A DNA stretch of 64,000 nt. Origin: Ensifer sp. IC4062 (GTDB lineage Bacteria; Pseudomonadota; Alphaproteobacteria; Rhizobiales; Rhizobiaceae). The stretch's first letter is position 1; every line of letters begins with the position of its first letter. A program made the position numbers and the translations under genes. The notes under the pieces were generated by a model that ran no database searches, was not told the DNA's origin, and saw only the letters and a list, made by a program, of their open reading frames with translations. The stretch is from positions 124,001 through 188,000 of the forward strand of contig NZ_JADYVD010000003.1 of assembly GCF_020193575.1 (NCBI RefSeq), given 5' to 3'. Positions 3,558 through 45,635 of the stretch are shown in pieces.

Positions 3558-3559
3558 GG

Positions 3560-4990: not shown

Positions 4991-5718
4991 CAGGCGACCC
5001 TTGCGCGTGTCAGTCCCTTCGACGCACGCTGCTCAAGCAGGCGCATGCCAATGGTGACGGTTAGAGAAATGGCCAGATAGAGCAGCAGCACGAGGGTAAA
5101 CACAGGGACCGTCTTCAGCGTCGACTGGTTCATTTGCTGCGCCTTGAAGGTGAGGTCCGCCAGCGTGATCAGGGAAACGAGCGAGGTAGACTTCACCAGT
5201 TCGATAAAGAGGTTGCCCCAGGGAGGAATCATGGCTGTAAAGGCCTGCGGCAGAATAATCCGACGCAGCATTTGTGCTTTCGACATGTTGAGCGCAATCG
5301 CAGCCTCCCACTGCCCGCGCGCCACGGAAATGATGGCGCCTCGGACGACTTCCGCTCCATAGGCTCCAATGTTCAGGCCGAGCGCCAGGACCGCTACGAG
5401 GAAGGCGTCAAGGAAGACGCCGAATTGCGGCAGGACGAAATAGAGCCAAAAGAGCTGTACCAGCGCGGAAGTCCCGCGGAAGATCTCAATGTAGGTCGTC
5501 GAAAGCCACCGTATCGGCAGCGGGCCGTAGAGCTTTGCGAGTGCCGCTACCAGCGCCATGAAAACGGCGAGCACGGCTCCTAGAAGCGTTATCTCTACCG
5601 TCAGGACGGCGCCTTCGAGCAAACCCGGCATGAAGAGCCGGTATTCAGGGTTGGCCGAAAGCAGAGCAATCAGCAGTAACGTTGCCGCGAGCATCACGGC
5701 GAGCATGCGAATCCACAT
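4990..5718 (-). CDS. ehuC: ABC transporter permease (EhuC-like)
   Basis: Inner-membrane permease of 242 aa in the polar-amino-acid uptake family. It has an N-terminal hydrophobic segment (MLAVMLAATLLLIALL), further membrane helices, and the EAA loop GQWEAAIALNMSKAQMLRRI followed by ILPQAF. Its start is 63 bp downstream of ehuB. A strong hairpin in that gap probably lets the binding protein be made in excess over the permeases. It ends by sharing one base with the start of ehuD, which points to translational coupling. Confidence 0.86.
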   Translation of the reverse strand: MWIRMLAVMLAATLLLIALLSANPEYRLFMPGLLEGAVLTVEITLLGAVLAVFMALVAALAKLYGPLPIRWLSTTYIEIFRGTSALVQLFWLYFVLPQFGVFLDAFLVAVLALGLNIGAYGAEVVRGAIISVARGQWEAAIALNMSKAQMLRRIILPQAFTAMIPPWGNLFIELVKSTSLVSLITLADLTFKAQQMNQSTLKTVPVFTLVLLLYLAISLTVTIGMRLLEQRASKGLTRARVA

Positions 5719-5750
5719 CTGGGTCCCTCATGAATGCAGGGATTGGAAGT

Positions 5751-5768
5751 GCGGCGCTTTCGCGCCGC
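5751..5768 (-). promoter_or_regulatory. Intercistronic hairpin between ehuB and ehuC
   Basis: Perfect inverted repeat GCGGCGC-TTTC-GCGCCGC. The 7-bp all-GC stem with a 4-nt loop lies just after the ehuB stop and has no T-run. Such hairpins after binding-protein genes usually protect the upstream message from 3' decay or partly attenuate downstream transcription. Confidence 0.6.
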
Positions 5769-5781
5769 CGGCCAGAAGACG

Positions 5782-6645
5782 TTACTCGCCTGCGCAAAGC
5801 TGCGCGGTCGTCTTGTTCGGCAGATAGTCCTTCCCAAAGCCCAGCGGTTCGACGAGGGCGATGTGTTCGGGGGTGCCCAGGAAGGCGGCGAGCTCCTTGT
5901 TGAAGGCGTCGACGAAATCCTTGTCCTCCTTGCGGAAGCCGAAGCCGCCGTGCCCCTTGACCGACTTTCCGGCGACTTCGCCGAAGGGTTCGGTCGACTC
6001 CACGCCTTCCGCTTTCTTGGCCATATCGGCGATCGAAAGCGCAGTCAGCGCTGCGGCATCCGCGCGGCCGGCCTGAACAGCGGCGACGAGGCTGGACTGA
6101 TCAGGAAGGGAGACGACCTGGTCGGCGGAGACGCCAGCATCCTTCGCGTAGCTACTTTCCACAGCACCCGCCATCACGGCGAGCTTCAGGTCCTTGTTGG
6201 ACACGAAGGTGGAGTAGTCTTTGACGGCCTTGGGGTTGCCCTTCGCCACCAGCATGGCCTGCCCGATGCCATAGGAGGGCTCGGAAAAGGCGATCTCGGC
6301 ACAGCGCTTGGGGTTGATGAACATGCCCGCCGCGATGATGTCGAAGCGACCTGCCTTCAAGCCCGGAATAAGCGAGCCGAATTCCGTGAGGACACCGTCC
6401 ACTTCGGCGATGCCCATTTTCTTGAGCACGGCCTTGGCGACTTCCGGGGCTTCTCCCGTAAGCTTTCCGTCGGGCGTTGCAAAGCCGAAAGGCGCCTCAT
6501 TGGCAAATCCGATGCGGATATAGCCGGCGGCCTTCGCCTTCTCGAGGGTCGATTCTGCATGGGCGTAGCCGGAGAAGGACACGGCGGCGATGGTGAGGGC
6601 TGCTGCCCTCAGTGCATTCCTGCGGGAAATGAGAGTTTTGAACAT
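5782..6645 (-). CDS. ehuB: Periplasmic solute-binding protein (EhuB-like)
   Basis: Family 3 (polar amino acid) periplasmic binding protein of 287 aa. An N-terminal export signal with arginines (SRRNALRAAALTIAAVSFSG) is followed by a likely cleavage near YAHA/ES. Domain landmarks are IRIGFANEAPFGF, the DGKLTGEAPEVAK motif and GRFDIIAAGMF. The NEAPF, GMF and PKR residues resemble the Glu, Phe and Arg positions I recall for ectoine binding in EhuB, but I could not align them. The ATG at 6645 has AGGGG upstream. The open frame runs further back without signal-peptide character. First gene of the leftward operon. Confidence 0.86.
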   Translation of the reverse strand: MFKTLISRRNALRAAALTIAAVSFSGYAHAESTLEKAKAAGYIRIGFANEAPFGFATPDGKLTGEAPEVAKAVLKKMGIAEVDGVLTEFGSLIPGLKAGRFDIIAAGMFINPKRCAEIAFSEPSYGIGQAMLVAKGNPKAVKDYSTFVSNKDLKLAVMAGAVESSYAKDAGVSADQVVSLPDQSSLVAAVQAGRADAAALTALSIADMAKKAEGVESTEPFGEVAGKSVKGHGGFGFRKEDKDFVDAFNKELAAFLGTPEHIALVEPLGFGKDYLPNKTTAQLCAGE

Positions 6646-6836
6646 GGGTTCCCCTTTTATTTGAAGATGGCGTTCGCCTCGGACGGCATGAATGCCTCGC
6701 GAGAGAGTAGAAGTATACATCTGATGCTCGTTTTGGCAAGGCGACTCGCAAAAATCTCGAATATGCGAAGATCCTGTTGCGTGCCGTGCAAAATGATGTA
6801 CACATCTATGGCGTCATGCACGGTGGAGGAGATTTC
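6646..6836. promoter_or_regulatory. Divergent promoter region with candidate GntR operators
   Basis: The 191-bp gap separates the leftward importer/regulator operon from the rightward catabolic operon and must hold both promoters. Two related sites are visible: AGTATACATC near 6712-6721 and the near-palindrome GATGTACACATC near 6795-6806. FCD-type GntR proteins commonly bind short palindromes of this kind, so these are candidate operators. No confident -35/-10 pair was assigned. Confidence 0.45.
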
Positions 6837-8018
6837 GTGAACAGGTCGGCTGTTTTTACCGCAGCGGAGTATTCCCGCCGGATCCGTGACGTGAAGAAAC
6901 GCATGGAGCGGGCGGGCTTCGACCTCATCATCTGTCAGGATCCTGCGAATATGGGCTGGCTCACCGGCTACGACGGCTGGTCGTTCTATGTGCCACAATG
7001 TGTTCTCGTGCACTTGGACGAGGAGCAGCCCATCTGGTTCGGTCGGGCGCAGGACGAGAAGAGCGCCCTTCTGACGACCGGCTTGCCTCAAGACAACGTC
7101 GTGCCGTTCTCGGAATATCTGGTGCAGAACCCGGAAGGCCACCCTTTCGACGAGCTTGCCGAGCTGGTGCGCGCCCGTGGCTGGGGGACGGCGCGCATCG
7201 GTGTGGAGATGGACGCGCATTACTACACCGCGCGCTGCCACGCCCAGCTCGTCAAAGGGCTTGCGGACGCCAGCTTTTCCAACAACGGCGACCTGGTCAA
7301 TTGGGCGCGCCTGATCAAATCCGAGCCCGAGCTGGCACTGATGCGTGAAGCCGGCGCCATTTGCTCGCATGCGATGGAGAGGGCCATCGGCAAGATGAGC
7401 CCCGGGGTGCCGCAGAACGAAGTCATCGCCGAACTTTATCATGCTCAGATCATGGGCGTGGACGGTCTCGGCGGCGACTATGCCGCGATCTGCCCGCTGA
7501 TGCCCGTCGGCGAAGGCACTGCCACGCCGCATTTGACCTGGACCGAGGAACCTCTGCCGCAGTCCGGCCTCGCGATTCTCGAAATCGCCGGCGTGAGGCG
7601 GCGCTACCATGCGGCGCTTACCCGCACGGTGCACCTTGGTCGGCCGCCTCAGAACTACATCGATATCGCCAGGGCCATTGTCGATGGTGTGGACGCCGGG
7701 CTCGAAAAGGCGCGTTCCGGCAACACGGCCGAGGAGGTCGAGGCCGCATGGCAGGCGGTTCTGCGCAGCCGGGGACTGAAGAAGGAAAGCCGCGTCGGTT
7801 ATCCGATCGGCCTCGCCTATCCGCCGGACTGGGGCGAGCGTACGGTCAGTCTCCGGCCGGGCGACCGCACCGAGTTACAGCCCGGCATGTGCTTTCACAT
7901 GATGGCGGGTGTCTGGCTTGGCGATTTCGGCCTGGCGATATCCGAGTCCTTCGTCGTCGCGGACAAGGGCGGGGAGAAGCTTTGCGCGTCGCCCCGGGAG
8001 CTGATCGTCGTCGAATAG
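6837..8018 (+). CDS. M24-fold hydrolase, EutD/DoeA paralogue
   Basis: Pita-bread (M24 aminopeptidase/creatinase fold) protein of 393 aa, exactly the length of the EutD encoded at 16199-17380. It shares long stretches with it: DPANMGWLTGYDGWSFYV, the IWFGRAQD motif, GYPIGLAYPPDWGERT, and SLRPGDRTEL. The metal-ligand pattern of true M24 peptidases is not apparent, as reported for ectoine hydrolase, so hydrolysis of a cyclic amidine or amide ring is likelier than peptide cleavage. GTG at 6837 was chosen because GGAGGAG ends 5 bp before it. ATG at 6816 is weaker. First gene of the rightward operon. Whether it is a second ectoine hydrolase or acts on a different ring is unknown. Confidence 0.85.
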   Translation: MNRSAVFTAAEYSRRIRDVKKRMERAGFDLIICQDPANMGWLTGYDGWSFYVPQCVLVHLDEEQPIWFGRAQDEKSALLTTGLPQDNVVPFSEYLVQNPEGHPFDELAELVRARGWGTARIGVEMDAHYYTARCHAQLVKGLADASFSNNGDLVNWARLIKSEPELALMREAGAICSHAMERAIGKMSPGVPQNEVIAELYHAQIMGVDGLGGDYAAICPLMPVGEGTATPHLTWTEEPLPQSGLAILEIAGVRRRYHAALTRTVHLGRPPQNYIDIARAIVDGVDAGLEKARSGNTAEEVEAAWQAVLRSRGLKKESRVGYPIGLAYPPDWGERTVSLRPGDRTELQPGMCFHMMAGVWLGDFGLAISESFVVADKGGEKLCASPRELIVVE

Positions 8019-8078
8019 ACGCCCGTTGACATCCATTCGAAGCGCCGCCGACTGAGAGCGGAAGACAAGAGAGAGACC

Positions 8079-9227
8079 ATGGACGGTAATCCCTTTACCG
8101 ATGGCGAAATCGCGCGTCGTCTTGATGCTGTAAGAGCCGGGCTTGTCGATCGCGGACTCGATGCGGCGGTTTTCGCATCGCCGGAAAACCTCTTTTATCT
8201 GACGGGCCTCGATCATTGGGGCTACTTTGCCCCCCACCTTCTCATCGTCCCGCTTCGGGGCGTACCCACCCTTGTCACCCGTGCGATGGAGCGGGTGACG
8301 ATCGAAAATCATGTCCGCGCGGCCGAGTTCCGCGGCCACAGCGACAGCGAAACCGCGGCCGATCTTGCGTCGCGCATCCTCAATGATCAAGCTTTCGCCG
8401 GAAAGCGGCTCGGGCTCGAGCAATGGACGTCCGGGCTGAGCCACGGGCTCGCGCGACGGCTGGAGTCGCTGGTGGCCGCCGAGTGGAGCGATGTTTCCAA
8501 CCTCGTGGATCAGCTCAGATTGGTAAAGAGCGCCGAGGAGCAGGTCCTCATGCGGCGGGCCGCCGCGGTTACCGACGTGGCCGCGAGCGCCGCCATCGAG
8601 GCGATCGCCGACGGTGCACGGGAGCGCGACGTTGCTGCGGAGTGCATCGCGGCGATGACCCGCGCTGGAGGTCATGTGCCGGGCTTTGGCCCCTTCATCC
8701 GTCCGGCATCCCGGCTTGGCGAGGAGCACACGACGTGGGGATCCGGGAGCTACCGCCAAGGGGAGCCGGTCTTCATCGAGCTTTCGGGATGCATCTCGCG
8801 CTATCACGCGCCGCTGGGGCGCCTGATCCGGCTTGGAGGCATCAGCGACGCCGATGCGCGCATGGCGGAAGTGACGGCGGCGGCCTTCAATGCTGTCGTC
8901 GGGGCGCTCAGGCCCGGCGCGCGCGCCCGTGATGTCTACGCCGTCTGGCAGGCTGTCGTCGATGATGCGGGCCTTTCTCATCACCGCCGCCATCACTGCG
9001 GCTACTGCGTGGGCGTCGGCCAGCCTCCGTCGTGGACGGGCGGAAACACCGTGACCGGTCTTAGACACGATTCCGATCTCGAGATCCGCACGGGGATGAG
9101 CTTCCACATCCTTTCCTGGCTCATGGGGACGGGCAAGGGGGACGATTTCGTCTCCAACACTCTCTTGCTGACGGAGACCGGACCCGAGGTGCTGACGCGC
9201 ACGCCGCTCGGCCCGATCGTTCGATAG
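8079..9227 (+). CDS. M24-fold hydrolase, creatinase/Xaa-Pro peptidase-like
   Basis: A second pita-bread protein of 382 aa, more distant from EutD than its neighbour. The N-terminal creatinase-type domain begins FTDGEIARRLDAVRAGL, close in style to creatinase N-termini. The catalytic domain contains VFIELSGCISRYHAPLGRLIRL, where the first metal-binding Asp of M24 peptidases is replaced by Glu and later His/Glu ligands are not evident. It is preceded by a 60-bp gap and followed 9 bp later by soxB. Creatinase (creatine to sarcosine plus urea) shares this fold, and a sarcosine oxidase follows, so an amidinohydrolase that releases an N-methyl amino acid is an attractive reading. This is inference only. 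Confidence 0.75.
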   Translation: MDGNPFTDGEIARRLDAVRAGLVDRGLDAAVFASPENLFYLTGLDHWGYFAPHLLIVPLRGVPTLVTRAMERVTIENHVRAAEFRGHSDSETAADLASRILNDQAFAGKRLGLEQWTSGLSHGLARRLESLVAAEWSDVSNLVDQLRLVKSAEEQVLMRRAAAVTDVAASAAIEAIADGARERDVAAECIAAMTRAGGHVPGFGPFIRPASRLGEEHTTWGSGSYRQGEPVFIELSGCISRYHAPLGRLIRLGGISDADARMAEVTAAAFNAVVGALRPGARARDVYAVWQAVVDDAGLSHHRRHHCGYCVGVGQPPSWTGGNTVTGLRHDSDLEIRTGMSFHILSWLMGTGKGDDFVSNTLLLTETGPEVLTRTPLGPIVR

Positions 9228-9236
9228 GACTTTGTC

Positions 9237-10493
9237 ATGAGCCGCTATTCGGTCTTCTCGCTGCTGCGCCACGCAGCCACAGGCAACCGGGGATGGCAAC
9301 GCGCCTGGCGCGCTGCCGCTCCGAAGGCCTCCTATGACGTCGTCATCGTTGGCGGCGGCGGCCACGGCCTCGCAACCGCCTTCTATCTCGCCGAGAGCCA
9401 CGGCATCCGTAACGTGGCGGTGCTGGAGAAGGGCTATATCGGCGGCGGCAATGTGGGCCGGAATACGACGGTCATCCGGTCGAACTACCTGCTGGACGGC
9501 AATACCCAATTCTACGAGTTCTCCATGAAGCTCTGGGAGGGAATGTCGGCGGCACTGAACTTCAACGTCATGTTCTCGCAGCGCGGCCAGCTCGTGACGG
9601 CACATTCGGCGGACCAGCTCGATACGTTCAGCCACCGCGCCAATGTCATGCGCTCGAATGGCATCGATGCGGAGATTCTCGACCGGGATGCCGTACGCAA
9701 GCTCGTGCCCTATCTTGACTTCTCCGACACGGCGCGGTTTCCGATCCATGGGGCGATCTTTCAGGGGCGAGCCGGCACGGCCCGCCACGACGCGGTCGCA
9801 TGGGGCTATGCGCGCGCGGCGAGCGGTCACGGTGTCGACATCATCGAGGGCTGCGAGGTTACGGACTTTGTCCGGCAGGGTGATCGGATCGTCGGCGTCG
9901 AAACCACCCGCGGCCGTATCGGTGCTGGCAAGGTCGGTCTCGCGGTGGCCGGCCATACGTCGGTCCTTGCCCAGAAGGCGGGGCTGGAGCTCCCGATCGA
10001 GAGCCATCTGCTCCAGGCCTTCGTGACGGAGCCGATCAAGCCGTTGGTCGACCATGTCGTAGCCTATGGGGCGGACCACTTCTATCTCAGCCAGTCGGAC
10101 AAGGGCGGTCTTGTCTTTGGCGGCAATCTCGACGGCTATAACTCGTACTCCCAGCGCGGCAACACCGGCGTGCTGCGCGAGGTCTGCGAAGCCGCGATCG
10201 CGCTGATGCCGAACATCTCGCGCCTGCGCCTGCTGCGCCATTGGGGCGGCATCATGGACATGACGCCGGACGCAAGCCCGATCATCTCGCTGACGCCCGT
10301 CGATGGCCTCTATCTAAACGGCGGCTGGTGCTACGGCGGATTCAAGGCGACACCCGCATCCGGCTGGTGCTTCGCCGAGATGCTGGCGACCGGCGAGACG
10401 CCGGCCCTCGTCCGCGGTTACGGGCTGGGGCGCTTCCGCAGCGGGCATATGATCGACGAAGCGGGCGCCGGCCCCTTCGCCTGGCTTCAATAG
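9237..10493 (+). CDS. soxB: Sarcosine oxidase beta subunit
   Basis: FAD/FMN-dependent subunit of heterotetrameric sarcosine oxidase, 418 aa as usual. The Rossmann dinucleotide motif VVIVGGGGHGLATAFYLAE starts near residue 35. NVGRNTTVIRSNYL is a hallmark of SoxB. His184 in GTARHDAVAWG is probably the residue that carries covalent FMN. The C-terminal GGWCYGGFKATPASG is typical of the family. The enzyme oxidatively demethylates sarcosine (N-methylglycine) and sends the one-carbon unit to tetrahydrofolate. First of four consecutive sox genes in the order B-D-A-G. Confidence 0.95.
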   Translation: MSRYSVFSLLRHAATGNRGWQRAWRAAAPKASYDVVIVGGGGHGLATAFYLAESHGIRNVAVLEKGYIGGGNVGRNTTVIRSNYLLDGNTQFYEFSMKLWEGMSAALNFNVMFSQRGQLVTAHSADQLDTFSHRANVMRSNGIDAEILDRDAVRKLVPYLDFSDTARFPIHGAIFQGRAGTARHDAVAWGYARAASGHGVDIIEGCEVTDFVRQGDRIVGVETTRGRIGAGKVGLAVAGHTSVLAQKAGLELPIESHLLQAFVTEPIKPLVDHVVAYGADHFYLSQSDKGGLVFGGNLDGYNSYSQRGNTGVLREVCEAAIALMPNISRLRLLRHWGGIMDMTPDASPIISLTPVDGLYLNGGWCYGGFKATPASGWCFAEMLATGETPALVRGYGLGRFRSGHMIDEAGAGPFAWLQ

Positions 10494-10502
10494 GAGAGGG
10501 AG

Positions 10503-10769
10503 ATGCTTCGTATCGACTGCCCCTGCTGCGGCACGCGCGACCACAGTGAATTCCGTTACGGCGGCGATGCCACTGTCGAGCGGCCCGCTTGCGACAATCC
10601 GGATCTCGATGCCTGGTACCGCTACGTCTACGTGCGGCCCAATCCCAAGGGGCTGCATCGGGAATATTGGCAGCACGTTCTCGGTTGCCGCCAATGGCTC
10701 GTCGTCGAGCGCGACACGGTCACGCATTCGATCCATTCGGTCAGTTTTTCAAGAAGGCAACGGGCATGA
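10503..10769 (+). CDS. soxD: Sarcosine oxidase delta subunit
   Basis: Small zinc-binding subunit of 88 aa. The Zn ligands are visible: Cys6 and Cys9 in CPCCG, and His58 and Cys62 in EYWQHVLGCRQW. The core segment DAWYRYVYVRPNPKG is typical. It begins 10 bp after soxB and its TGA overlaps the soxA ATG by 4 bp (ATGA). The subunit is structural within the SoxABDG complex. Confidence 0.95.
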   Translation: MLRIDCPCCGTRDHSEFRYGGDATVERPACDNPDLDAWYRYVYVRPNPKGLHREYWQHVLGCRQWLVVERDTVTHSIHSVSFSRRQRA

Positions 10770-13705
10770 CACCCACCGAAAAGCGTCTTGCGTCAGGCGG
10801 ATATCTGGACCGCGCGCAGGTCCTCAAATTTATGTTCGATGGCCGTCAGTATTCGGGTTTCAAGGGAGACACGCTCGCTTCCGCCCTGCTCGCGAGCGGG
10901 ATCTCGCTGATCGGCAGGAGCTTCAAGTATCATCGCCCCCGCGGCATTCTCTCCGCCGGTGCGGAAGAGCCGAACGCGCTGGTAACGGTCGGCGCGGGCG
11001 CGCGCCGGGAGCCGAACCTGCCGGCCACGATGCTTGAACTGGCACCCGGCCTGGAAGCGGCAAGCCAGAACAACTGGCCTTCGTTGCGCTTCGATGTCCA
11101 GAGCGTCAACAGCCTGTTCAGCCCGCTTCTTTCCTCCGGGTTCTACTACAAGACCTTCATGGGGCCGAGCGGCCGGGCCTGGATGTTCTATGAGCACAGC
11201 ATCCGCAAGGCTGCGGGTCTCGGCAAGGCGACAATGATGCCGGACCCAGATGTGTACGACTCCCGTGACGATTTCACGGACGTGGCGGTCGTCGGCAGTG
11301 GGGCGGCTGGACTTTCCGCCGCCCGGGCCGCCGCGCAAGCCGGAGCGCGTGTGTTGCTGATCGAGCAGGACTTCGAAATCGGCGGCCGCCTGCTTTCCGA
11401 GCCTGCCGGAGCGGCATGGCTTAGCGCGATGCGGACAGAGCTCGAGGAAATGGCGAACGTGCGCATCATGCGCCGAACGACCGCCTTCGGACTCTATGAC
11501 GGGAATACGCTCGCGCTGATCGAGGATGCGGATCCCTTCGCTGGTCCCGCGATGAATGCGGGGCGGAAAACCTTCACGTTGTTGCACGCCCAAAGCATCG
11601 TCTTCGCGACCGGCGCGATTGAGCGGCCGATGGTCTTCTCGAACAATGACCGGCCCGGCGTCATGCTGAACTCGGCGATCAGGGCGTATGTCAATCGCTA
11701 CGCGGTTCTGCCCGGCAGGAATGTCGTGATCGCGACCGCCGACGACAGCGCCTATCTCACCGCTTTCGATCTCCTCGCCCACGGCGCACGCGTCACGATC
11801 GCCGACGCAAGGCCGCTCGCGGAGCCGACGCTGCTTGCGAAGGCCAAGCAAATGGGGGCTGAGATTCACCTCGCGACGAATGTCGCGGACGTGAAAGGCA
11901 AATATGCGTTAACCGGTGTCGTCCTTGCAGGAAAGTCAGGCACCACCGGCGTCAGTTGCGATCTGGTCGGCATGTCCGCCGGCTGGTCTCCGGTGCTGCA
12001 TTTGACGTCGCACCAGGGAGTGAAGCCCGTCTACCGCCCAGAGATCGACGCCTTTGTTCCGGGGCAGCTCCCGGAAACCCAGTTCGTCGCGGGCGCGGCG
12101 GGCGGAAGCCTGAGCGTCTCGGCGGCGGTCACCGAGGGTACCAGTGCCGGCCGCGCGGCGGCCGCCGTCGCGGGAAAGGCGGGTGCGGTCGCCGAAGCGC
12201 CCGCCTTGGAGATCGAGGAAAGGGCCGGCCCGACGACCGTCTACAAGCCGATCTTCGGTCAGCGAAAGGCATTCGTCGATTTCCAGATGGACGTGACGCT
12301 CGACGATATCCAGCTCGCCCGGCGGGAAGGCTACGAGTCGGTCGAGCACCTCAAGCGCTATACGACGCTCGGGATGGGAACGGACCAGGGCAAGACCAGC
12401 AATATCAACGCCCTGAAGGTCATGGCCAAGCTGCGCGGGATTTCGATCCCGGAGGCCGGAACAACCACGTTCCGTCCGCCCTACACGCCGGTGGCAGTCG
12501 GGGCGGTTGCCGGACGTGCGACGGGTCACCACTTCCGTCCTCACCGTCTCACGCCGATCCACGACTGGCATACGGCGAACGGCGCGCAGATGCTCGAGGT
12601 CGGGCTCTGGATGCGGCCGTGGTTCTTCGAGGCCTCCGGCCCGGATGTGAATACGGCTTATGTCAACGAGATGCGGCACGTGCGGTCCGCGGCGGGGATC
12701 ATGGACATCTCGACGCTCGGCAAGATCGACATCCAGGGACCGGACGCGGCCGCCTTTCTCGACAGGATTTACGCCAATGGCTTCGCCAGCCTTAAAGTCG
12801 GGCGGGCGCGTTACGGCGTCATGCTGCGCGACGACGGCATCGTTTTCGATGATGGAACGACGACGCGCCTGGGAGAAAGCCGCTTCTTCATGACGACGTC
12901 GACTGCCAAGGCGGCGGACGTGCTTTCCTGGCTGGAATTCCTGCTGGACACAGCGTGGCCGGATCTGCGCGTCTCCGTTTCTTCGGTCAGCGACGAATGG
13001 GCGGGCATATCGGTCGCTGGACCTGAGAGCGTCAAGATACTGGCGGCCGCGTTCCCGGAGATCGATTTCTCCAACGAGGCGCTGCCGCACATGGGTCTCG
13101 CCGATGGAACGTTCAAGGACAGTCCGCTGAGGATCATACGCCTCAGCTACTCCGGCGAGCGCGCCTACGAGATCTATGTCGGGGCCTCGAACGGAGGGAA
13201 CGCCTGGCGGCACCTCATCGATGTCGGCGCGACCTACGGCCTGAAACCCTACGGCGTGGAGGCGCTGGGTGCGCTGCGCATTGAAAAAGGCCACGTGGCC
13301 GGTCCTGAAATCGACGGCAGAACGACTCTCTCGGACCTGGGTATGGGTCGGATGGTCGCCAAGCGAAGCGGCTATGTCGGTGAGGCCCTGAGCCGTCGGG
13401 AGGCCTTTCAAGCTGCAAATCGACAGCGGCTGGTCGGCCTGAAATGCACCGAACCCGGCAAACGGCTTCGCGGCGGGGCGCTTCTCTTTGCGCCCGGCGA
13501 GCCGCTGCAGGGCCACGGCCGTGGCCGCATGACATCGATCACCTACAGTCCGGAGCTGGACTGCTACATCGGCCTGGGACTCCTTGCCGCAGACTTCGAA
13601 GGCGACGAGGTGATCGCCTCCTATCCCATGAAAAATGAGGCCGTGCGGGCGCGCGTCGTTTCGCCTGTCTTCCTCGATCCCGCCGGAGAACGCATGCATG
13701 GTTGA
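10766..13705 (+). CDS. soxA: Sarcosine oxidase alpha subunit
   Basis: Large subunit of 979 aa. Residues about 20-100 form the Fer2-like N-terminal domain (GRQYSGFKGDTLASALLASG, then FKYHRPRG). Near residue 172 is the NAD-binding motif VAVVGSGAAGLSAARAAA. The C-terminal domain from about residue 600 is a GcvT-like folate-binding domain (WMRPWFFEA, DISTLGKIDIQGPDAAAFLDR, GLKPYGVEALGALRIEKGH). It binds NAD and tetrahydrofolate and yields 5,10-methylene-THF. The ATG at 10766 overlaps soxD. An upstream in-frame extension through soxD was rejected. Confidence 0.95.
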   Translation: MTPTEKRLASGGYLDRAQVLKFMFDGRQYSGFKGDTLASALLASGISLIGRSFKYHRPRGILSAGAEEPNALVTVGAGARREPNLPATMLELAPGLEAASQNNWPSLRFDVQSVNSLFSPLLSSGFYYKTFMGPSGRAWMFYEHSIRKAAGLGKATMMPDPDVYDSRDDFTDVAVVGSGAAGLSAARAAAQAGARVLLIEQDFEIGGRLLSEPAGAAWLSAMRTELEEMANVRIMRRTTAFGLYDGNTLALIEDADPFAGPAMNAGRKTFTLLHAQSIVFATGAIERPMVFSNNDRPGVMLNSAIRAYVNRYAVLPGRNVVIATADDSAYLTAFDLLAHGARVTIADARPLAEPTLLAKAKQMGAEIHLATNVADVKGKYALTGVVLAGKSGTTGVSCDLVGMSAGWSPVLHLTSHQGVKPVYRPEIDAFVPGQLPETQFVAGAAGGSLSVSAAVTEGTSAGRAAAAVAGKAGAVAEAPALEIEERAGPTTVYKPIFGQRKAFVDFQMDVTLDDIQLARREGYESVEHLKRYTTLGMGTDQGKTSNINALKVMAKLRGISIPEAGTTTFRPPYTPVAVGAVAGRATGHHFRPHRLTPIHDWHTANGAQMLEVGLWMRPWFFEASGPDVNTAYVNEMRHVRSAAGIMDISTLGKIDIQGPDAAAFLDRIYANGFASLKVGRARYGVMLRDDGIVFDDGTTTRLGESRFFMTTSTAKAADVLSWLEFLLDTAWPDLRVSVSSVSDEWAGISVAGPESVKILAAAFPEIDFSNEALPHMGLADGTFKDSPLRIIRLSYSGERAYEIYVGASNGGNAWRHLIDVGATYGLKPYGVEALGALRIEKGHVAGPEIDGRTTLSDLGMGRMVAKRSGYVGEALSRREAFQAANRQRLVGLKCTEPGKRLRGGALLFAPGEPLQGHGRGRMTSITYSPELDCYIGLGLLAADFEGDEVIASYPMKNEAVRARVVSPVFLDPAGERMHG

Positions 13706-14195
13706 GACGTTATCCGCCAAGCGCATGGTGCTGGAGCAACTGCCATGCCCGCTCATTCAATGCGATGCCTGGGAGGGTACTTTTGCGGCGTTCAAAGCGG
13801 CGCTTGCCCGCGAGATCGGCGGCGCCCTACCGACGCAGGTCGGGGAGATTGCTGGCCGCGGCGGCCTGAGGGTCGTACGCGCCGGGCCACGGCGCTTTTG
13901 GATTTTCCCGTCCGAGCGGTCGGCGACGATCGCTTCCGGCATTCCGCCAGAATTGGGCTGCAGGCTGGACCTCAGCGAGGGGCGGATACGCATCGAGGTC
14001 TCCACGCCTGATCTGCGCGATGTCGTCTCCAAGTGTCTGGCGATCGACTGGGACCGCACACTGGGCGTTGCGACCTTTTCCTCGCTGCACCGCATCCCGG
14101 TCATGTTCACGCGTTTCTCGGAGCGCGACGGCGAATTTGTCGTGCCGCGAAGCTTCGCAAGGAGCATCTCCGAATGGCTGGAGGAATGCCAGTGA
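13698..14195 (+). CDS. soxG: Sarcosine oxidase gamma subunit
   Basis: Gamma subunit of 165 aa with a GcvT-related fold. It has the weakly conserved family pattern ending in RIPVMFTRFSERDGEFVVPRS. The ATG at 13698 overlaps the end of soxA by 8 bp and the TGA at 14193-14195 overlaps the next ATG (TGATG), so translation of all four sox genes and eutB is coupled. Sequence identity within this family is usually low, so the call leans on position and C-terminal motif. Confidence 0.9.
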   Translation: MVETLSAKRMVLEQLPCPLIQCDAWEGTFAAFKAALAREIGGALPTQVGEIAGRGGLRVVRAGPRRFWIFPSERSATIASGIPPELGCRLDLSEGRIRIEVSTPDLRDVVSKCLAIDWDRTLGVATFSSLHRIPVMFTRFSERDGEFVVPRSFARSISEWLEECQ

Positions 14196-15184
14196 TGGAG
14201 CTCGACGCCTTCCTGGCGGCCCGGCACCGGATCGCCGGCCGGGTGCTGCGCACCCCGTTTGTCCTTTCCGCGTCGCTTTCCGAGCGCTGCGGCGTCCCTG
14301 TCGGCCTGAAGCTCGAACACCACCAGACGACCGGCAGCTTCAAGCTGCGCGGCGCCACCAACGCGGTCCTGTCGCTCAACCCCAAGGAGCGGGCCCGCGG
14401 CGTCGTGGCGGCCTCAACCGGCAATCACGGCCGCGCGCTTGCCCATGCGGCCAAGGCCGAAGGGTCGAGCGCGACGATCTGCATGTCGCACCTTGTGCCC
14501 GAGAACAAGGTCTCGGAGATCCGGCGCCTCGGCGCCAATGTCAGGATCGTCGGCAGATCGCAGGACGAGGCCCAGCAGGAAGTCGACCGTCTGGTCCGCG
14601 AGGAGGGCTTGGTGATGGTGCCGCCCTTCGACCATCCGGCGATCATTGCGGGCCAAGGTACGTTGGGCCTGGAGATTGTCGGAGACATGCCGGAGGTGTC
14701 GACGGTGCTGGTGCCACTATCGGGCGGCGGGCTCGCGGCGGGCGTCGCCGCAGCAGTCAAAGCGCGCCGGCCGAAGGCACGTGTGATCGGGCTGACGATG
14801 GAGCGCGGTGCGGCGATGAAGGCAAGCCTGGATGCTGGCCGGCCCGTGCAAGTCGAGGAAGAGGCGAGCCTTGCGGACTCGCTCGGCGGCGGGATCGGAC
14901 TCGACAACCGGGTCACCTTCACCATGTGCCGTGATCTTCTCGACGACGTGGTGCTGCTTTCCGAAGAAGAGATCGCCGCCGGCATGCGGCACGCCTACCA
15001 ACAGGAACGCGAGATTGTCGAGGGGGCAGGGGCCGTCGGCTTTGCGGCGCTCTTGGCGGACAAGATCAAAGACATTGCCGGACCTGTCGCGCTGATCCTG
15101 TCAGGACGCAACATCGACATGGAGCTGCACCGGCGCGTGATCAACGGTGAAACGGATCCCCTGCGGGAGGGTGGTAGAATATGA
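14195..15184 (+). CDS. eutB: Hydroxyectoine utilisation dehydratase
   Basis: PLP enzyme of 329 aa in the threonine dehydratase/serine racemase fold. The Schiff-base lysine lies in TTGSFKLRGATNA, the substrate loop is AASTGNHGRALA and the phosphate-binding loop is PLSGGGLAAG. In ectoine clusters EutB acts with EutC to convert hydroxyectoine toward ectoine. The ATG at 14195 was chosen because GGAGGA at 14180-14185 is properly spaced. ATGs at 14174 and 14186 are alternatives. It overlaps the soxG stop by 1 bp and the eutC start by 4 bp. An ordinary L-threonine dehydratase is unlikely given the neighbours. Confidence 0.88.
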   Translation: MELDAFLAARHRIAGRVLRTPFVLSASLSERCGVPVGLKLEHHQTTGSFKLRGATNAVLSLNPKERARGVVAASTGNHGRALAHAAKAEGSSATICMSHLVPENKVSEIRRLGANVRIVGRSQDEAQQEVDRLVREEGLVMVPPFDHPAIIAGQGTLGLEIVGDMPEVSTVLVPLSGGGLAAGVAAAVKARRPKARVIGLTMERGAAMKASLDAGRPVQVEEEASLADSLGGGIGLDNRVTFTMCRDLLDDVVLLSEEEIAAGMRHAYQQEREIVEGAGAVGFAALLADKIKDIAGPVALILSGRNIDMELHRRVINGETDPLREGGRI

Positions 15185-16173
15185 GACAAATGAAAATCCT
15201 CACAGAGGCCGATCTGAGGGCGGTCGTATCGCTCGACCGCGAGGCGGTCGATTGCGTCGAGGGCGCTTTCCATGCCTTGGCGACGAAGGCCGTGGCAATG
15301 CCGCCGATCCTGCGGCTGGACATTCCCGAGTACCGCGGCGAGGTCGATGTCAAGACGGCCTATGTTCCCGGCATCGAAGGCTTCGCCATCAAGATCAGCC
15401 CTGGCTTCTTCGACAATCCGAAGATCGGCTTGCCGAGCACCAACGGGATGATGGTGCTGCTCTCCAGCCGCACCGGCCTCGTTGAGGCGCTGCTGCTCGA
15501 TAACGGCTACCTGACGGATGTCCGCACCGCCGCCGCCGGAGCGGTTGCCGCCAAGCATCTCGCCCGGGAGGATGCCAGCGTTGCCGCGGTTCTGGGTGCC
15601 GGGATGCAGGCGAAGCTGCAGCTTCAGGCGCTCGCGCTGGTCCGGCCGATCCGCGAAGCGCGCATCTGGGCACGGGATCATGCGAAGGCCAAGGCCGCGG
15701 CGGATGAGCTTGCCGAAAAGCTCGGGTTCCCCGTCGCCGCCGTTTCAGACGTCAGGGAGGCTGTGTCCGGCGCACACGTCATCATCACGACGACGCCCTC
15801 GACCACGCCCATTCTAAAAGCGGCATGGCTCGAGAAGGGACAGCACGTGACAGCGATGGGCTCGGACGCCGAGCACAAGAACGAGATTGAGCCCGCCGTT
15901 ATTGACCGCGCGGATCTCTATGTGGCTGACAGTCTCGCCCAAACGCGCCGGCTCGGCGAGCTGCATCACGCCATCGAGGCTGGCGTCGTCGGGGCGGGAC
16001 GCGACTTCCCGGAGCTTGGGCAGATTATCGCCGGGCAGAGACCGGGACGCGCCAATGCCGATCAGATTACAATCGCGGATCTCACCGGCACGGGCATTCA
16101 GGATACGGCAATCGCCACTCTCGCCTTCACGCGGGCTAACGCGGCGGATGCCGGGACCGCGTTCGAAAGCTAG
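15181..16173 (+). CDS. eutC: Ectoine utilisation protein EutC (ornithine cyclodeaminase family)
   Basis: NAD(P)-dependent ornithine cyclodeaminase/mu-crystallin family protein of 330 aa. The motif AYVPGIEGFAIKISPGFF contains the conserved Lys, YLTDVRTAAAGAVAAKHLA is the family signature, VLGAGMQAKLQLQAL is the dinucleotide-binding loop, and IADLTGTGIQDTAIA lies near the C-terminus. It works with EutB in hydroxyectoine conversion. The start overlaps eutB by ATGA. The DNA between eutB, eutC and soxG shows no eutA gene. Confidence 0.9.
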   Translation: MRQMKILTEADLRAVVSLDREAVDCVEGAFHALATKAVAMPPILRLDIPEYRGEVDVKTAYVPGIEGFAIKISPGFFDNPKIGLPSTNGMMVLLSSRTGLVEALLLDNGYLTDVRTAAAGAVAAKHLAREDASVAAVLGAGMQAKLQLQALALVRPIREARIWARDHAKAKAAADELAEKLGFPVAAVSDVREAVSGAHVIITTTPSTTPILKAAWLEKGQHVTAMGSDAEHKNEIEPAVIDRADLYVADSLAQTRRLGELHHAIEAGVVGAGRDFPELGQIIAGQRPGRANADQITIADLTGTGIQDTAIATLAFTRANAADAGTAFES

Positions 16174-16198
16174 CCGCGGGGAAAGAGAGGATAGGATC

Positions 16199-17380
16199 AT
16201 GACGCAAGCCAATCTCAAATTCTCCATGCCGGAGTACGAAGCAAGGCTGCTGAAAACACGCCAGTCGATGGAGGCGAAGGGCATCGATCTGTTGATCGTC
16301 AGCGACCCTTCGAACATGGCCTGGCTGACGGGCTATGATGGCTGGTCGTTCTACGTGCACCAGGCCGTGATCGTACCGCCATCGGGCGAGCCGATCTGGT
16401 TCGGCCGCGGCCAGGACGCCAACGGTGCGAAGCTGACAGCCTATCTGAAGCACGAGAACATCATCGGTTATCCCGACCATTACGTGCAGTCGACCGAGCG
16501 TCATCCGATGGATTACCTCTCCGGCATCCTTGCCGACCGGGGCTGGGGGTCACTCAGGATCGGCGTTGAGATGGACAACTACTGGTTCTCCGCCGCGGCC
16601 TTCGCCTCGCTGCAAAAGCATCTGCCGAATGCGCGCTTCGTCGACGCGACCGCGCTCGTCAACTGGCAGCGCGCGGTCAAGAGCGAGACCGAGATCAAGT
16701 ACATGCGCAACGCCGCCCGCATCGTCGAGGGCATGCATCGGCGGATCTTCGACAAGATCGAGGTCGGCATGCGCAAATGCGATCTCGTCGCCGAGATCTA
16801 CGACGCCGGCACACGCGGGATTGACGGTATCGGCGGCGACTATCCGGCAATCGTGCCGCTGCTGCCGTCGGGCCGCGATGCAACCGCGCCGCATCTTACT
16901 TGGGATGATAAGCCCATGAAGGCGGGAGAGGGGACCTTTTTCGAGATCGCCGGCTGTTACAATCGTTACCATGTGCCACTGTCGCGCACCGTCTTCCTCG
17001 GCAAGCCGACCAAGGCTTTTCTCGACGCGGAAAAGGCGACCCTCGAAGGAATGGCGGCGGGACTTGCCGTCGCTAGGCCGGGCAACATCTGCGAGGACAT
17101 AGCCAATGCCTTCTTCGCGGTCCTGAAGAAATACGGCATCGTCAAGGACAACCGCACCGGCTATCCGATCGGGCTTTCCTATCCGCCGGACTGGGGCGAG
17201 CGCACCATGAGCCTGCGTCCCGGTGACAGGACGGAACTCAAACCGGGCATGACCTTCCACTTCATGACGGGGCTCTGGCTCGAGGACATGGGCTTCGAGA
17301 CCACGGAAAGCATTCTCATCACCGAGACGGGTGTCGAGTGCTTCGCCAACGTGCCGCGCCAGCTCTTTATCAAGGACTAG
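16199..17380 (+). CDS. eutD: Ectoine hydrolase EutD/DoeA
   Basis: Ectoine hydrolase of 393 aa with the pita-bread fold. It opens the ectoine ring to N-alpha-acetyl-diaminobutyrate. Landmarks are SDPSNMAWLTGYDGWSFYV, the IWFGRGQD motif, CYNRYHVPLSRTVFLG and GYPIGLSYPPDWGERTMS. The enzyme is reported to be metal-independent, and canonical M24 metal ligands are indeed not evident. The ATG at 16199 has AGAGGATAGGATC upstream. It follows eutC by 25 bp and precedes eutE by 6 bp, the standard DoeAB pairing. This copy, not the one at 6837, is the likelier true ectoine hydrolase because of that pairing. Confidence 0.92.
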   Translation: MTQANLKFSMPEYEARLLKTRQSMEAKGIDLLIVSDPSNMAWLTGYDGWSFYVHQAVIVPPSGEPIWFGRGQDANGAKLTAYLKHENIIGYPDHYVQSTERHPMDYLSGILADRGWGSLRIGVEMDNYWFSAAAFASLQKHLPNARFVDATALVNWQRAVKSETEIKYMRNAARIVEGMHRRIFDKIEVGMRKCDLVAEIYDAGTRGIDGIGGDYPAIVPLLPSGRDATAPHLTWDDKPMKAGEGTFFEIAGCYNRYHVPLSRTVFLGKPTKAFLDAEKATLEGMAAGLAVARPGNICEDIANAFFAVLKKYGIVKDNRTGYPIGLSYPPDWGERTMSLRPGDRTELKPGMTFHFMTGLWLEDMGFETTESILITETGVECFANVPRQLFIKD

Positions 17381-17386
17381 CATCAA

Positions 17387-18385
17387 ATGACCGAGACGAT
17401 ATTGCGGCCATCACCGATCTCAGCAAGCGTCGATTTTTCGGCCGAAGGCGTCCAGCACGGCTTCCTGCGGCTGCCCTACAGCCGCGATGACTCCGCCTGG
17501 GGATCGGTGATGATCCCGATCACCGTCGTCAGGAACGGAGACGGGCCCACGGCCCTTCTTACGGGCGGCAACCACGGCGACGAGTACGAAGGGCCGATCG
17601 CACTCTTCGATCTCGCCCGGACATTGGCGGCGGAGGAGGTGACGGGACGGGTGATCATCGTCCCGGCCATGAACTATCCGGCCTTCGCCGCCGGCACCCG
17701 CGTCTCGCCGATCGACAAGGGCAACATGAACCGCAGCTTTCCGGGAAGGCCGGACGGTACCGTGACGCAGAAGATCGCCGACTATTTCCAGCGAGAGCTC
17801 CTGCCGCTCGCGGAAATCGTGCTCGACTTCCACTCGGGTGGAAAGACGCTTGATTTCCTGCCGTTCTGCGCGGCGCACATCCTGCCAGACAAGGAGCAGG
17901 AGGCACGGGCCTTCGAACTGGTCAAGGCGTTCGGCGCGCCCTGGTCGATGAAGATGCTGGAGATCGATGCGGTCGGAATGTACGACACCGCGGCCGAGGA
18001 AATGGGCAAGGTGTTCATCACCACCGAGCTTGGTGGCGGCGGAACGGCAACGGCCAGGAGCGCCGGCATCGCCAAACGCGGCGTCAGGAATGTGCTTCGC
18101 GCCGCCGGCATTCTGAAAGGTGCAGTCGAGACATCGAAGACCGAATGGCTCGACATGCCGGACGGCGACTGCTTCTCCTTCGCGGAAGATGGGGGCCTGA
18201 TAGAGCCACTCGTCGATCTGGGGGAAAAAGTGCGCAAGGGCGACGTGGTCGCCCAGATTTACCCCATTGCGCGCACCGGCGCCGAACCTTTGGAGATAAA
18301 GGCGAAAATGGACGGCCTGCTGGCCGCCCGGCACTTTCCGGGCCTGGTCAAGCAGGGCGACTGTGTTGCCGTCCTCGCGATTTAG
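17387..18385 (+). CDS. eutE: N-alpha-acetyl-diaminobutyrate deacetylase EutE/DoeB
   Basis: Zinc-dependent deacylase of 332 aa in the AstE/AspA (M14-like) family. The zinc site is visible as His and Glu in TGGNHGDEYEGP and a second His in VLDFHSGGKT. The GNMNRSFPGRPDGT motif binds the substrate carboxylate and ITTELGGGGT supplies the catalytic Glu. It removes the acetyl group to give diaminobutyrate, the substrate of the aminotransferase at 1-703. It starts 6 bp after eutD. The purU stub begins 23 bp downstream. Confidence 0.92.
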   Translation: MTETILRPSPISASVDFSAEGVQHGFLRLPYSRDDSAWGSVMIPITVVRNGDGPTALLTGGNHGDEYEGPIALFDLARTLAAEEVTGRVIIVPAMNYPAFAAGTRVSPIDKGNMNRSFPGRPDGTVTQKIADYFQRELLPLAEIVLDFHSGGKTLDFLPFCAAHILPDKEQEARAFELVKAFGAPWSMKMLEIDAVGMYDTAAEEMGKVFITTELGGGGTATARSAGIAKRGVRNVLRAAGILKGAVETSKTEWLDMPDGDCFSFAEDGGLIEPLVDLGEKVRKGDVVAQIYPIARTGAEPLEIKAKMDGLLAARHFPGLVKQGDCVAVLAI

Positions 18386-18408
18386 CTCACGTCCCAAGGA
18401 AGATAGTC

Positions 18409-18471
18409 GTGAAATCGCACATCCTTACAATTACGTGCAGGTCGACGACCGGCATCATCGCGGCAGTTTCG
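18409..18471 (+). pseudogene. purU: Truncated purU (formyltetrahydrofolate deformylase), N-terminal stub
   Basis: A GTG at 18409 with AAGGAAGA upstream starts a frame of 21 codons encoding KSHILTITCRSTTGIIAAVS, which matches the start of the ACT domain of rhizobial PurU. After that the reading frame continues to a stop at 18607-18609 without resemblance to PurU, so the gene is cut at about 18471. PurU releases formate from formyl-THF and is commonly encoded beside soxBDAG. This stub shows that the operon once extended further and was truncated by a rearrangement. Recognition is from memory and the stub is short. Confidence 0.7.
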
Positions 18472-18574
18472 CTCACGGACCAGCCAGTTTCCGGCGCCGG
18501 CGCTTCTGTGTTTAGCCTGCCGTTGCATCATTTTGCTTTGGCAACAGTCTCCGCCGATCGGTCTGCTGAGCTCC

Positions 18575-19765
18575 TCAAGCCGAAGCGGACTCTACGCGCG
18601 ACATCATAGCGGCACTTTGCGAGGCTGAGCGTTGCAAGGCCGACGACGCGAGGGCATCCCATTGAGAAAGTATGTGTTCCGACGAATATCTCTTGGCGCT
18701 GGCTTTCGCATTTGCCGCGAGACGCATCCTCAGAGCACCGTCGCCCAGAACGTTGGCCAGTGCCTCCGCGAGGGCATTTACATCGCCGCTGGAAACGAGA
18801 ATTCCGTCCTCGCCGTGTCTAACCATGTCCGTCGGCCCCCATTCGCAGGCAAAGGAGACGACAGGAACACCGGCGGCCATAGCCTCGAGCAAGGCGATCC
18901 CCCATCCCTCGTAGCGCGATGACAACACAAAGACGTCGGCGGTCTCCAGCCATAGCCCTGACCGCTCCGTCACGCCCGGCATCTCCACCCGATCTGTCAA
19001 GCCAAGCGCATCTCGCAGTGCCTCCAGTTCTTTCCTGGCATTGCCTTCACCCCATATCACGAGCTTCCACTCGGGGCGTTTGGAGGCAATCTTGGCGAAG
19101 GCTTCCAATAGGAGATCGAAGCCTTTTTGCCGCGTCAGGCGACCGACCGCGGTCAAAATATTGTTGCCGCGCCGATTTTGCCATCCGATGGGCAAATCGA
19201 CAGCATTGGCAATCACCCATCCCTTGCGGCGCACCGCCGACGGAAAATAGTCGAGCGCTCCTTTCGTCATGGTCACGAGGCCGAACGCGCGCGGATACAA
19301 AAGAAGTTGGAGCCACTTCCAGAATGGGCCGAAGGGCTGCAGCGCCGGATTGTTGCGCTCGGAAACGACCACCGGAAGCGCCAACCCAGTCGTTGCCAAA
19401 AGCGTCAGGACATTCGTTCGGGTCAGAAAGCTCAGGACAAAGTCGGGGCGGGAGCGTTGGATGGCAGAGCGCAGCCGATGGATTCTCTTCAGCACCAACC
19501 AGGTGGCCTGAAGCTTCGAGGCTCTTTGATTCGGCAAGCCGAGGCGGTTGATGGAGATCCTCGGATCAAGCTCGTAGTAAGGCTTCGCAGTTGGCTCCTC
19601 GAGGGTGATCACCGTCACCGCACAGCCGAGACGAGTCCAGTGGTTCGCGACAAGGCTCACAACGTGCTCGGTGCCGCCGGCACCGAGCGCGGAAACGACG
19701 ATGGCGACCCGTGCGCCTGAAATGCTGGACGCTCCGACCACCTGTGTATCCGCGCGCTCATCCAA
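18575..19765 (-). CDS. Glycosyltransferase family 4 protein
   Basis: GT-B fold glycosyltransferase of 396 aa. The N-terminal half carries VSALGAGGTEHVVSLVAN. The C-terminal GT4 domain has LTAVGRLTRQKGFDLLLEAF, the ALGLTDRVEMPG segment and the EX7E-type motif SSRYEGWGIALLEAMAAG. It probably transfers a sugar from a nucleotide-sugar donor to a surface glycan. It stands alone, facing the truncated purU, with a sugar importer beyond its 5' end. Its placement suggests it arrived with the rearrangement that cut purU. The 277-bp region between it and the next gene shows nothing recognisable. Confidence 0.85.
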   Translation of the reverse strand: MDERADTQVVGASSISGARVAIVVSALGAGGTEHVVSLVANHWTRLGCAVTVITLEEPTAKPYYELDPRISINRLGLPNQRASKLQATWLVLKRIHRLRSAIQRSRPDFVLSFLTRTNVLTLLATTGLALPVVVSERNNPALQPFGPFWKWLQLLLYPRAFGLVTMTKGALDYFPSAVRRKGWVIANAVDLPIGWQNRRGNNILTAVGRLTRQKGFDLLLEAFAKIASKRPEWKLVIWGEGNARKELEALRDALGLTDRVEMPGVTERSGLWLETADVFVLSSRYEGWGIALLEAMAAGVPVVSFACEWGPTDMVRHGEDGILVSSGDVNALAEALANVLGDGALRMRLAANAKASAKRYSSEHILSQWDALASSALQRSASQSAAMMSRVESASA

Positions 19766-42616: not shown

Positions 42617-42639
42617 ACAATGGCGGATGCGAAGCTCCA

Positions 42640-43029
42640 TTACAGTTGCTCAACCGACTGTGATTGTTTTATCTTCAGTGCTGCGGCGCAAAGAGCCAAT
42701 GCCGGCGTAGCTGCATGGCAGTGTGGATAGTCGTTAATGCTCGTAGTTGCGATTTTGTCGCTTTCGTGCATGATCCAACTGAATCCACCGGTAAAGCGCG
42801 GAGAAACGGTATCGAGGAGTTGCAGGGCAGCGTCGATTGATCCAGTAAAGTGCGGTAACCTAGCGCTTGCCTCTCCTTGCCAATACCAAATGACATTTCG
42901 GCTCGGGATGCCCGATCCCGCATATTCAACCTTCCGTTGCCAACCAAAAAGAAGGGCGATCTTTACGTCAACGTCCCGGTCGGGTCGTTTGAGCGCCTCG
43001 ATTTCTTCAATCAAATCAGTAATTGCCAT
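42640..43029 (-). CDS. Small protein, phage ABA-sandwich-like (2)
   Basis: Protein of 129 aa, unknown function, paralogue of 41282-41650. The shared pattern is ALKRPDRDVDVKIALLFGW, WYWQGEASARLPHFTGSIDAAL and HAATPALALCAAALK. ATG at 43029 was chosen. The frame extends to 43125 with a less typical N-terminus. It lies 23 bp from the end of the methyltransferase gene, tail to tail. Confidence 0.65.
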   Translation of the reverse strand: MAITDLIEEIEALKRPDRDVDVKIALLFGWQRKVEYAGSGIPSRNVIWYWQGEASARLPHFTGSIDAALQLLDTVSPRFTGGFSWIMHESDKIATTSINDYPHCHAATPALALCAAALKIKQSQSVEQL

Positions 43030-45570: not shown

Positions 45571-45635
45571 TTTCGTGTCCTCCCGTTAACTCTCCATAAT
45601 GCCGCAGAATGCGAATTTCTTGCCGGCATCGCTCC

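Follow-up and report, generated by a model that had tools for sequence, protein, structure and literature searches.

Among the closest described relatives of the locus analyzed here is the Sinorhizobium meliloti cluster for use of the salt protectant ectoine, in which ehuABCD and eutABCDE are combined with asnC-ssd-atf (PMC5924519). Clusters in which ehuBCDA is divergent from the catabolic genes and eutA is missing have also been described (PMC13188858), and the regulatory gene enuR (MocR/GabR) adjoins 278 of 363 known ectoine clusters (PMC8739950). Heterotetrameric sarcosine oxidase is known from glyA-soxBDAG-purU operons beside glycine-betaine genes (PMC3691474). The main text of PMC13188858, figures and supplements aside, does not mention "M24", and "sarcosine" occurs in it a single time, among the references; literature searches on methylated ectoine and on the combination of eut with sox yielded nothing joining them. 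Here, we analyzed a stretch of 64,000 nucleotides of the soil bacterium Ensifer sp. IC4062 (contig NZ_JADYVD010000003.1, positions 124,001 to 188,000; hereafter the window), in which a module of gntR, an ehuBCDA importer, two genes for M24-type hydrolases (M24a and M24b) and soxBDAG lies between canonical ectoine genes. Our favoured reading, of middling confidence, is that this is a composite ectoine-catabolism cluster whose module would import an ectoine-like compound, open its ring with M24a/M24b and N-demethylate it with SoxBDAG.

A preliminary description of this DNA had listed a rightward operon of M24a, M24b, soxBDAG, eutBCDE and a purU stub, with overlaps from soxD through eutC, and intact frames and coordinates bear this out. 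Ten intact frames run on the + strand from 6837 to 18385 as one operon. M24a (6837–8018, with a GTG start after GGAGGAG) and M24b (8079–9227) are followed by the subunit genes of a heterotetrameric sarcosine-oxidase-type enzyme in their usual order: soxB for the beta subunit (9237–10493; TIGR01373, 656 bits, cut-off 529), soxD for delta (10503–10769), soxA for alpha (10766–13705; TIGR01372, 1220 bits, cut-off 1164) and soxG for gamma (13698–14195; TIGR01375, 9.9e-15, 55 of 144 bits). The operon continues with eutB, encoding hydroxyectoine dehydratase (14195–15184; TIGR02991, 569 bits, cut-off 413), eutC, encoding a cyclodeaminase-like protein (15181–16173; TIGR02992, 587 bits, cut-off 472), eutD, encoding ectoine hydrolase (16199–17380; TIGR02993, 820 bits, cut-off 613), and eutE, encoding acetyl-diaminobutyrate (acetyl-DABA) deacetylase (17387–18385; TIGR02994, 620 bits, cut-off 403). 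SoxA, SoxB, EutB, EutC, EutD and EutE are above their NCBIfam cut-offs and M24a, M24b and SoxG below; soxD is identified by its CPCC and HVLGC motifs and by co-linearity in relatives. Overlaps amount to 4 bases for soxD/soxA, 8 for soxA/soxG, 1 for soxG/eutB and 4 for eutB/eutC. A protein search of the source genome found no second EutE (next match 22 bits). Behind eutE, tblastn detected the purU remnant (18409–18609, + strand), in which similarity to purU stops at 18471 after the first approximately 26 codons; purU is full length at the same place in all 4 relatives read to its end (L029, L041, L042 and L043), the other loci ending earlier. An opposite-strand glycosyltransferase gene comes after the remnant. 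With purU cut in this way and that gene following it, the operon appears to have been rearranged at its 3′ end in the source strain (18409–19765).

The rightward operon is half of a two-armed catabolic locus, and the leftward half had been left out of that description. Beyond a divergent intergenic region of 191 bases (6646–6836), the - strand carries ehuB, for a binding protein of a second EhuB type (5782–6645; TIGR02995, 310 bits, cut-off 191), the permease genes ehuC (4990–5718; TIGR03004, 271 bits, cut-off 197) and ehuD (4343–4990; TIGR03003, 296 bits, cut-off 205), and the ATPase gene ehuA of this ATP-binding cassette (ABC) importer (3560–4342; TIGR03005, 439 bits, cut-off 345). The product of gntR (2826–3578, start uncertain) matches GntR/FadR-type models best (77 bits; MocR-type models, 18–26 bits). 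The arm ends with asnC, for an Lrp/AsnC regulator (2344–2829), ssd, for a protein resembling succinate-semialdehyde dehydrogenase (728–2224, start approximate; 595 bits to PRK11241, below the cut-off of 828), and atf, for a class III aminotransferase of the DABA transaminase type (1–717, cut by the window edge). The module flanks have eutB, eutC, eutD, eutE, asnC, ssd and atf in common with the S. meliloti type of ectoine cluster, at 76–86% DNA identity, with eutD and eutE adjacent and above cut-off, eutB and eutC present, and all 4 Ehu proteins above cut-off. In place of the MocR-type regulator, canonical ehuABCD and eutA of that cluster, however, the window has the second-type ehuBCDA, gntR, M24a, M24b and soxBDAG. 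No enuR stands beside the cluster, the adjacent regulator being of the GntR/FadR type; eutA, which is absent, is also missing from many known clusters, and the divergent importer without eutA resembles the arrangement in PMC13188858.

Comparison with other loci showed that the window is a mosaic. Positions 2837–14179 form a single uninterrupted 79% blastn block to the Rhizobium sullae plasmid pWSM1592_1 (L028), which carries gntR-ehuADCB/M24a-M24b-soxBDAG with no eut gene labelled alongside, whereas positions 1–2826 (atf, ssd and asnC) and 14213–18378 (eutBCDE) match an ordinary Shinella ectoine cluster (L030) at 78–86% (blastn). The latter is ordered atf, ssd, asnC, a gene of the pyridoxal-phosphate (PLP)-dependent aminotransferase family, which we read as the MocR-type regulator, ehuABCD and eutABCDE; its positions 269–986, annotated as an aspartate aminotransferase family protein, match atf at 85.5%, and the window ssd lies in a canonical block at 725–2826. 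The joints fall at asnC/gntR (2826/2837) and soxG/eutB (14179/14213), and the module stands where the ordinary cluster has the regulator, ehuABCD and eutA. On this plasmid R. sullae also has an ordinary ehuABCD-eutBCDE cluster, at a distance of about 75 kb from the module. The EutD of that cluster is 91–92% identical to the window EutD and its asnC is 80% identical to ours, while the window gntR is 84% identical to the gntR of the R. sullae module. Because the module block is flanked by canonical blocks and R. sullae holds both clusters apart, we infer from these alignments that the fused locus arose by cassette exchange between 2 cluster types that still coexist elsewhere. In R. sullae, Shinella and Mesorhizobium, the module occurs with no eut genes linked to it. 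The sox genes thus belong to an independent module, and M24b-eut clusters exist without local sox. The coupled translation of soxG and eutB, which had been put forward as an argument for selection, reduces to one junction from one cassette exchange.

Within the genus, M24b of the fused locus was found at 95–100% in 10 of 33 genomes, source genome included, and gene labels or 98% megablast cover revealed the whole operon in those 10. The TGATG overlap of soxG and eutB is kept in each of 7 distinct relative genomes examined (9 rows including 2 duplicates). EutA was above cut-off in 1 of the 10 module genomes versus 20 of the 23 others (Fisher p = 5e-5, kinship uncorrected), the exception (G002) having EutA and a second EutD-like gene side by side on the same contig; no EutA above cut-off was detected in the source genome, where the best score was 193 of 318 bits.

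An alignment scan with M24b of an 84,980-genome collection yielded 189 relatives, the best 80 of which were fetched with their flanks and had their neighbours labelled by blastp to the window proteins, using identity thresholds of our own choice for partner scoring; several genome and locus numbers denote the same assemblies (e.g., L042/L057 and L043/L056). The commonest set, in 19 of these best 80 of 189, was a stand-alone gntR-ehuADCB/M24a-M24b-soxBDAG (Mesorhizobium, R. sullae and Shinella). Among the 58 loci flanked by 7 kb or more in both directions (22 of the 80 had less than 7 kb on a side and were dropped), sox accompanied M24b in 34, eut-type genes (eutBC, eutE or EutD-like) in 25, both in 11 and neither in 10. 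Eight of the 11 have eutBC, 5 of them being the Sinorhizobium fusion, and in the remaining 3 the sole eut-type gene is EutD-like and falls in a separate clade. On an M24b tree of 59 rows, no fewer than 5 gains or losses are needed to account for the joint state (quick search; near-duplicates or short-flank loci were left out of all trees described here). A gene would have a sox operon within 20 kb by chance in about 1–2% of cases, assuming 3–6 sox operons in 6.7 Mb. New arrangements that combine sox, M24b and eut genes occur in Devosia nitrariae (L105, eutB-eutC-asnC-ssd-M24b-EutD-like-soxBDAG), in a metagenome-assembled genome (MAG) of the Alphaproteobacteria (L085) and in Dongia deserti (L079). 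Outside the 80, Paraburkholderia aspalathi (L167) has eutD-eutE with purU-soxGADB and an M24b-like gene, and a Mesorhizobium locus (L164) has EutD-ArgE-M20-M24b-like-soxBDAG-ehuBCDA, its ArgE and HipO-like M20 genes being named by eye; L165 is similar, with the importer not in view. Since 2 types of N-acyl amino acid hydrolase stand beside sox in L164 and L165, these loci fit deacylation before demethylation. Four Mesorhizobium genomes (G083, G087, G089 and G106), conversely, carry gntR-ehuADCB/M24b-eutBCDE-asnC-ssd with no local sox, and in 4/4 of them the M24b cluster holds the only EutE above cut-off. The earlier argument against an accidental sox-eut combination is strengthened by the 10/33 genomes of the genus and by these other gene orders in unrelated lineages, and sox was not confined to this place in other strains, the fusion recurring in the genus and joint loci in Devosia, Dongia, the MAG, Mesorhizobium and Paraburkholderia.

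Two further kinds of M24b neighbourhood were noted. A distant version of the module (L032, G029:C10) consists of purU, serine/threonine dehydratase-like and threonine-aldolase-like genes, soxGADB, a GlxA-type regulator, an amidase, an M24b-like gene (44%), ehuBCDA and gntR, several of them named by eye. In five gammaproteobacterial MAGs and one Neomegalonema MAG (L120, L121, L122, L123, L126 and L131), an M24b-like gene (48–49%) accompanies peptide-type ABC transporter genes (by eye), with no eut or sox labelled, possibly reflecting a different use of the same hydrolase.

Judged by alignment and structural model, M24a and M24b would be EutD-like hydrolases and not creatinases. M24a scored 479 of 613 bits with the EutD model TIGR02993 and 384 bits with the EutD/DoeA structure 6twk, and M24b, the query for the module family, 203 of 575 bits with DoeA_2 (NF038259) and 147 of 613 with EutD, all model scores being below cut-off. 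EutD, M24a and M24b formed separate groups in a quick tree of 102 rows; the window M24a and M24b fell with their counterparts from the R. sullae module, and the window EutD with canonical rhizobial EutD proteins. Of the EutD motifs, M24a keeps YDGWSFYV, PHLTW, EIAG, PPDWGER and SES; in their place M24b has PGFGPFIRP, WTGG and SNT segments of its own. The positions of EutD Glu255 and His238 are conserved in 6/6 M24a and 14/14 M24b aligned rows. M24 metallopeptidases of the prolidase type bind metal through Asp, Asp, His, Glu and Glu, and at least 4 of these 5 ligands are replaced in the window M24a, M24b and EutD. The 2 proteins share their fold, the Glu255/His238 positions and the loss of most prolidase metal ligands with EutD/DoeA of Halomonas elongata (6twk, 6twj and 6yo9), but differ from it as separate clades below the family cut-offs. 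With creatinase (1chm), M24b shares the M24 fold and the catalytic His position; however, it has Gly at Glu262 and Leu at Glu358, the active-site glutamates of creatinase, and keeps EutD Glu255, which is Asn in creatinase. An AlphaFold2 model of M24b (mean predicted local distance difference test score 91.9) matched H. elongata EutD/DoeA first (E 6e-35), with creatinases next. A proven ectoine hydrolase (DoeA) is only 30–31% identical to some other DoeA proteins (PMC7192451), so that the distance of M24b is compatible with an ectoine-like substrate.

The SoxBDAG enzyme has the B, D, A, G gene order and the flavin and folate motifs of the solved sarcosine oxidase TSOX (2gag and 1vrq), as well as purU in relatives. 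SoxB retains RHD, IRSNY and GFK, the motifs for the flavin-linking His and the carboxylate-binding Arg/Lys, and SoxA has the PF01571 (GCV_T) folate domain (2.9e-65) and a DGxxFDD motif common to 2gag. In contrast to TSOX, the window SoxB has a GWCYGGFK loop in place of GWGTGGFK, among other changes, no glyA is labelled in the operon, and its genes accompany those for EutD-type hydrolases and an ectoine-type importer. Two further SoxB proteins are encoded in the source genome, on C142 (TSOX-like, GWGTGGFK) and C99 (GWCYGGFK). In a 26-row SoxB tree, 17 rows (Rhizobiaceae, Mesorhizobium, Devosia and L085) grouped at 95/90, the Dongia, Maritimibacter and Paracoccus rows grouped with C99, and a Burkholderia pair stood apart. 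The folate domain of SoxA and the purU of relatives, as in glyA-soxBDAG-purU operons (PMC3691474), suggest transfer of the N-methyl carbon to tetrahydrofolate.

The window EhuB shows 38–39% identity to EhuB of canonical clusters, and its nearest Protein Data Bank entry is S. meliloti EhuB (2q88). Among the ligand-site residues compared, Glu22, Phe25, Phe81 and Arg86 (chain numbering) are kept, whereas Phe replaces Tyr61 and GGGTE becomes AGAVE. The same features appear in the 12 aligned EhuB rows of the module type, of which two deviate by Tyr at position 25 and one by SGAVE. Because this EhuB type also serves sox-free ectoine clusters (L076), its ligand is probably ectoine-like. One further protein of the source genome passes the EhuB cut-off, on C145. 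It belongs to the Ehu-type ABC transporter of a second EutD-like cluster (L038, G000:C145, 5952–14652). This cluster also has asnC, an EutA-like gene scoring 193 bits (under its cut-off) and an EutD-like gene with 56% identity to the window EutD; an M20 hydrolase gene and a MocR-like gene were assigned by eye.

We propose the following route. The second-type EhuBCDA importer would take in ectoine-type cyclic amidine carboxylates, and M24a and M24b, as EutD-type hydrolases, would open rings that EutD handles poorly. A deacetylase, EutE here and ArgE/M20 types elsewhere, would remove the acetyl group. SoxBDAG would then oxidise an N-methyl group on the amino acid so formed, with tetrahydrofolate as acceptor of that group; in relatives, PurU would recycle the folate. 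EutBC, Atf and Ssd would carry the demethylated product, of diaminobutyrate type, towards aspartate. The link that N-demethylation makes between the module and an ectoine-like compound is moderately supported. An ectoine-like compound bearing an N-methyl or another N-substituent is the most probable natural substrate, and naming one, such as N-methylectoine, is a rather doubtful guess. An ectoine-like N-methylated compound is the part of the substrate proposal in the preliminary description that fits; its creatine-like alternative is weakened by the loss of both creatinase glutamates.

Several observations weigh against this proposal. N-methylated ectoine was not found in the literature searched. 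Sox is optional, SoxB of at least 78% identity occurring elsewhere in only 3 of 14 M24b genomes without complete local sox, and 18 of the 80 M24b loci, some on short contigs, show none of the scored partners. The recurrence of joint loci could partly reflect loss from an older joint cluster. Although EutE was present in 36/36 sox-bearing genomes checked, 130/146 of a Mesorhizobium genus set have it, and this near-generality makes the co-occurrence uninformative. In addition, the GWCYGGFK loop is present in the C99 SoxB, with no M24b or eut gene labelled in its 19-kb stretch (L036), and the SoxB rows linked to M24b are not confined to a single clade of their own, so that ordinary sarcosine could still be the substrate.

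The shared SoxB loop favours the main rival, mixed osmolyte scavenging, in which ectoine genes and an ordinary sarcosine/glycine-betaine demethylation unit would be co-regulated because the osmolytes co-occur, with no shared substrate. The known glyA-soxBDAG-purU operons beside glycine-betaine genes (PMC3691474), the purU ending the operon in relatives and the separate occurrence of eut and sox also fit it. We nevertheless consider it a possible but unlikely account: the SoxB loop and tree position differ from the solved sarcosine oxidase while the same genome has the TSOX-like C142 SoxB, and M24a/M24b and the ectoine-type importer are left unexplained. Distinctly unlikely, in our view, is that M24a and M24b are extra (hydroxy)ectoine hydrolases that widen the use of ectoine, replacing for example EutA-dependent hydroxyectoine processing, with SoxBDAG clearing an N-methyl or N-alkyl by-product in some hosts. 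The sox-free Mesorhizobium clusters with their sole EutE, the 9 of 10 module genomes with no EutA above cut-off and the low identity of a functional DoeA to other DoeA proteins (PMC7192451) would agree with this, but neither the frequency of sox beside M24b (34/58) nor the lack of linked eut genes in module-only loci would be explained.

Catabolism of creatine or a creatine-like guanidino compound would make M24b a creatinase supplying sarcosine to SoxBDAG. The product of creatinase is a substrate of sarcosine oxidase, and creatinase belongs to the same M24 superfamily (69 bits; fold TM score 0.88). This is very unlikely, however, given the residues described above, the closeness of M24b to DoeA by both sequence and fold, and its repeated linkage to eutBC, ssd and asnC. 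A chance neighbourhood of sox and eut genes with no functional meaning is hardly credible: the fusion in the genus looks like one event and gene overlaps can arise by deletion, but the arrangement is conserved in the 10/33 genomes, other orders exist elsewhere, and the chance expectation is about 1–2%.

Elsewhere in the window, positions 42000–52000 have a G+C content of 0.50–0.52, compared with about 0.58–0.63 in most of the remainder, and contain a run of six glycosyltransferase genes on the - strand (45636–51845). This region is perhaps an acquired surface-polysaccharide locus.

Ectoine catabolism has so far been treated as one pathway with variable importers. The present analysis points to a second, widespread importer-plus-hydrolase module that includes an N-demethylase and, in several lineages, is joined to ectoine clusters. 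Its prediction is a testable, undescribed nutrient, which some of the annotated ectoine transporters, ectoine hydrolases and sarcosine oxidases may serve. A bolder and rather unlikely extension is that ectoines or hydroxyectoines carrying N-methyl groups exist as natural osmolytes, and that in soils, plants and saline habitats they are abundant enough for bacteria to have evolved a dedicated route, from second-type Ehu import to folate-linked N-demethylation, and to have joined it several times to ectoine catabolism. If the substrate were indeed an N-methylated ectoine, it would represent a new class of compatible solute.

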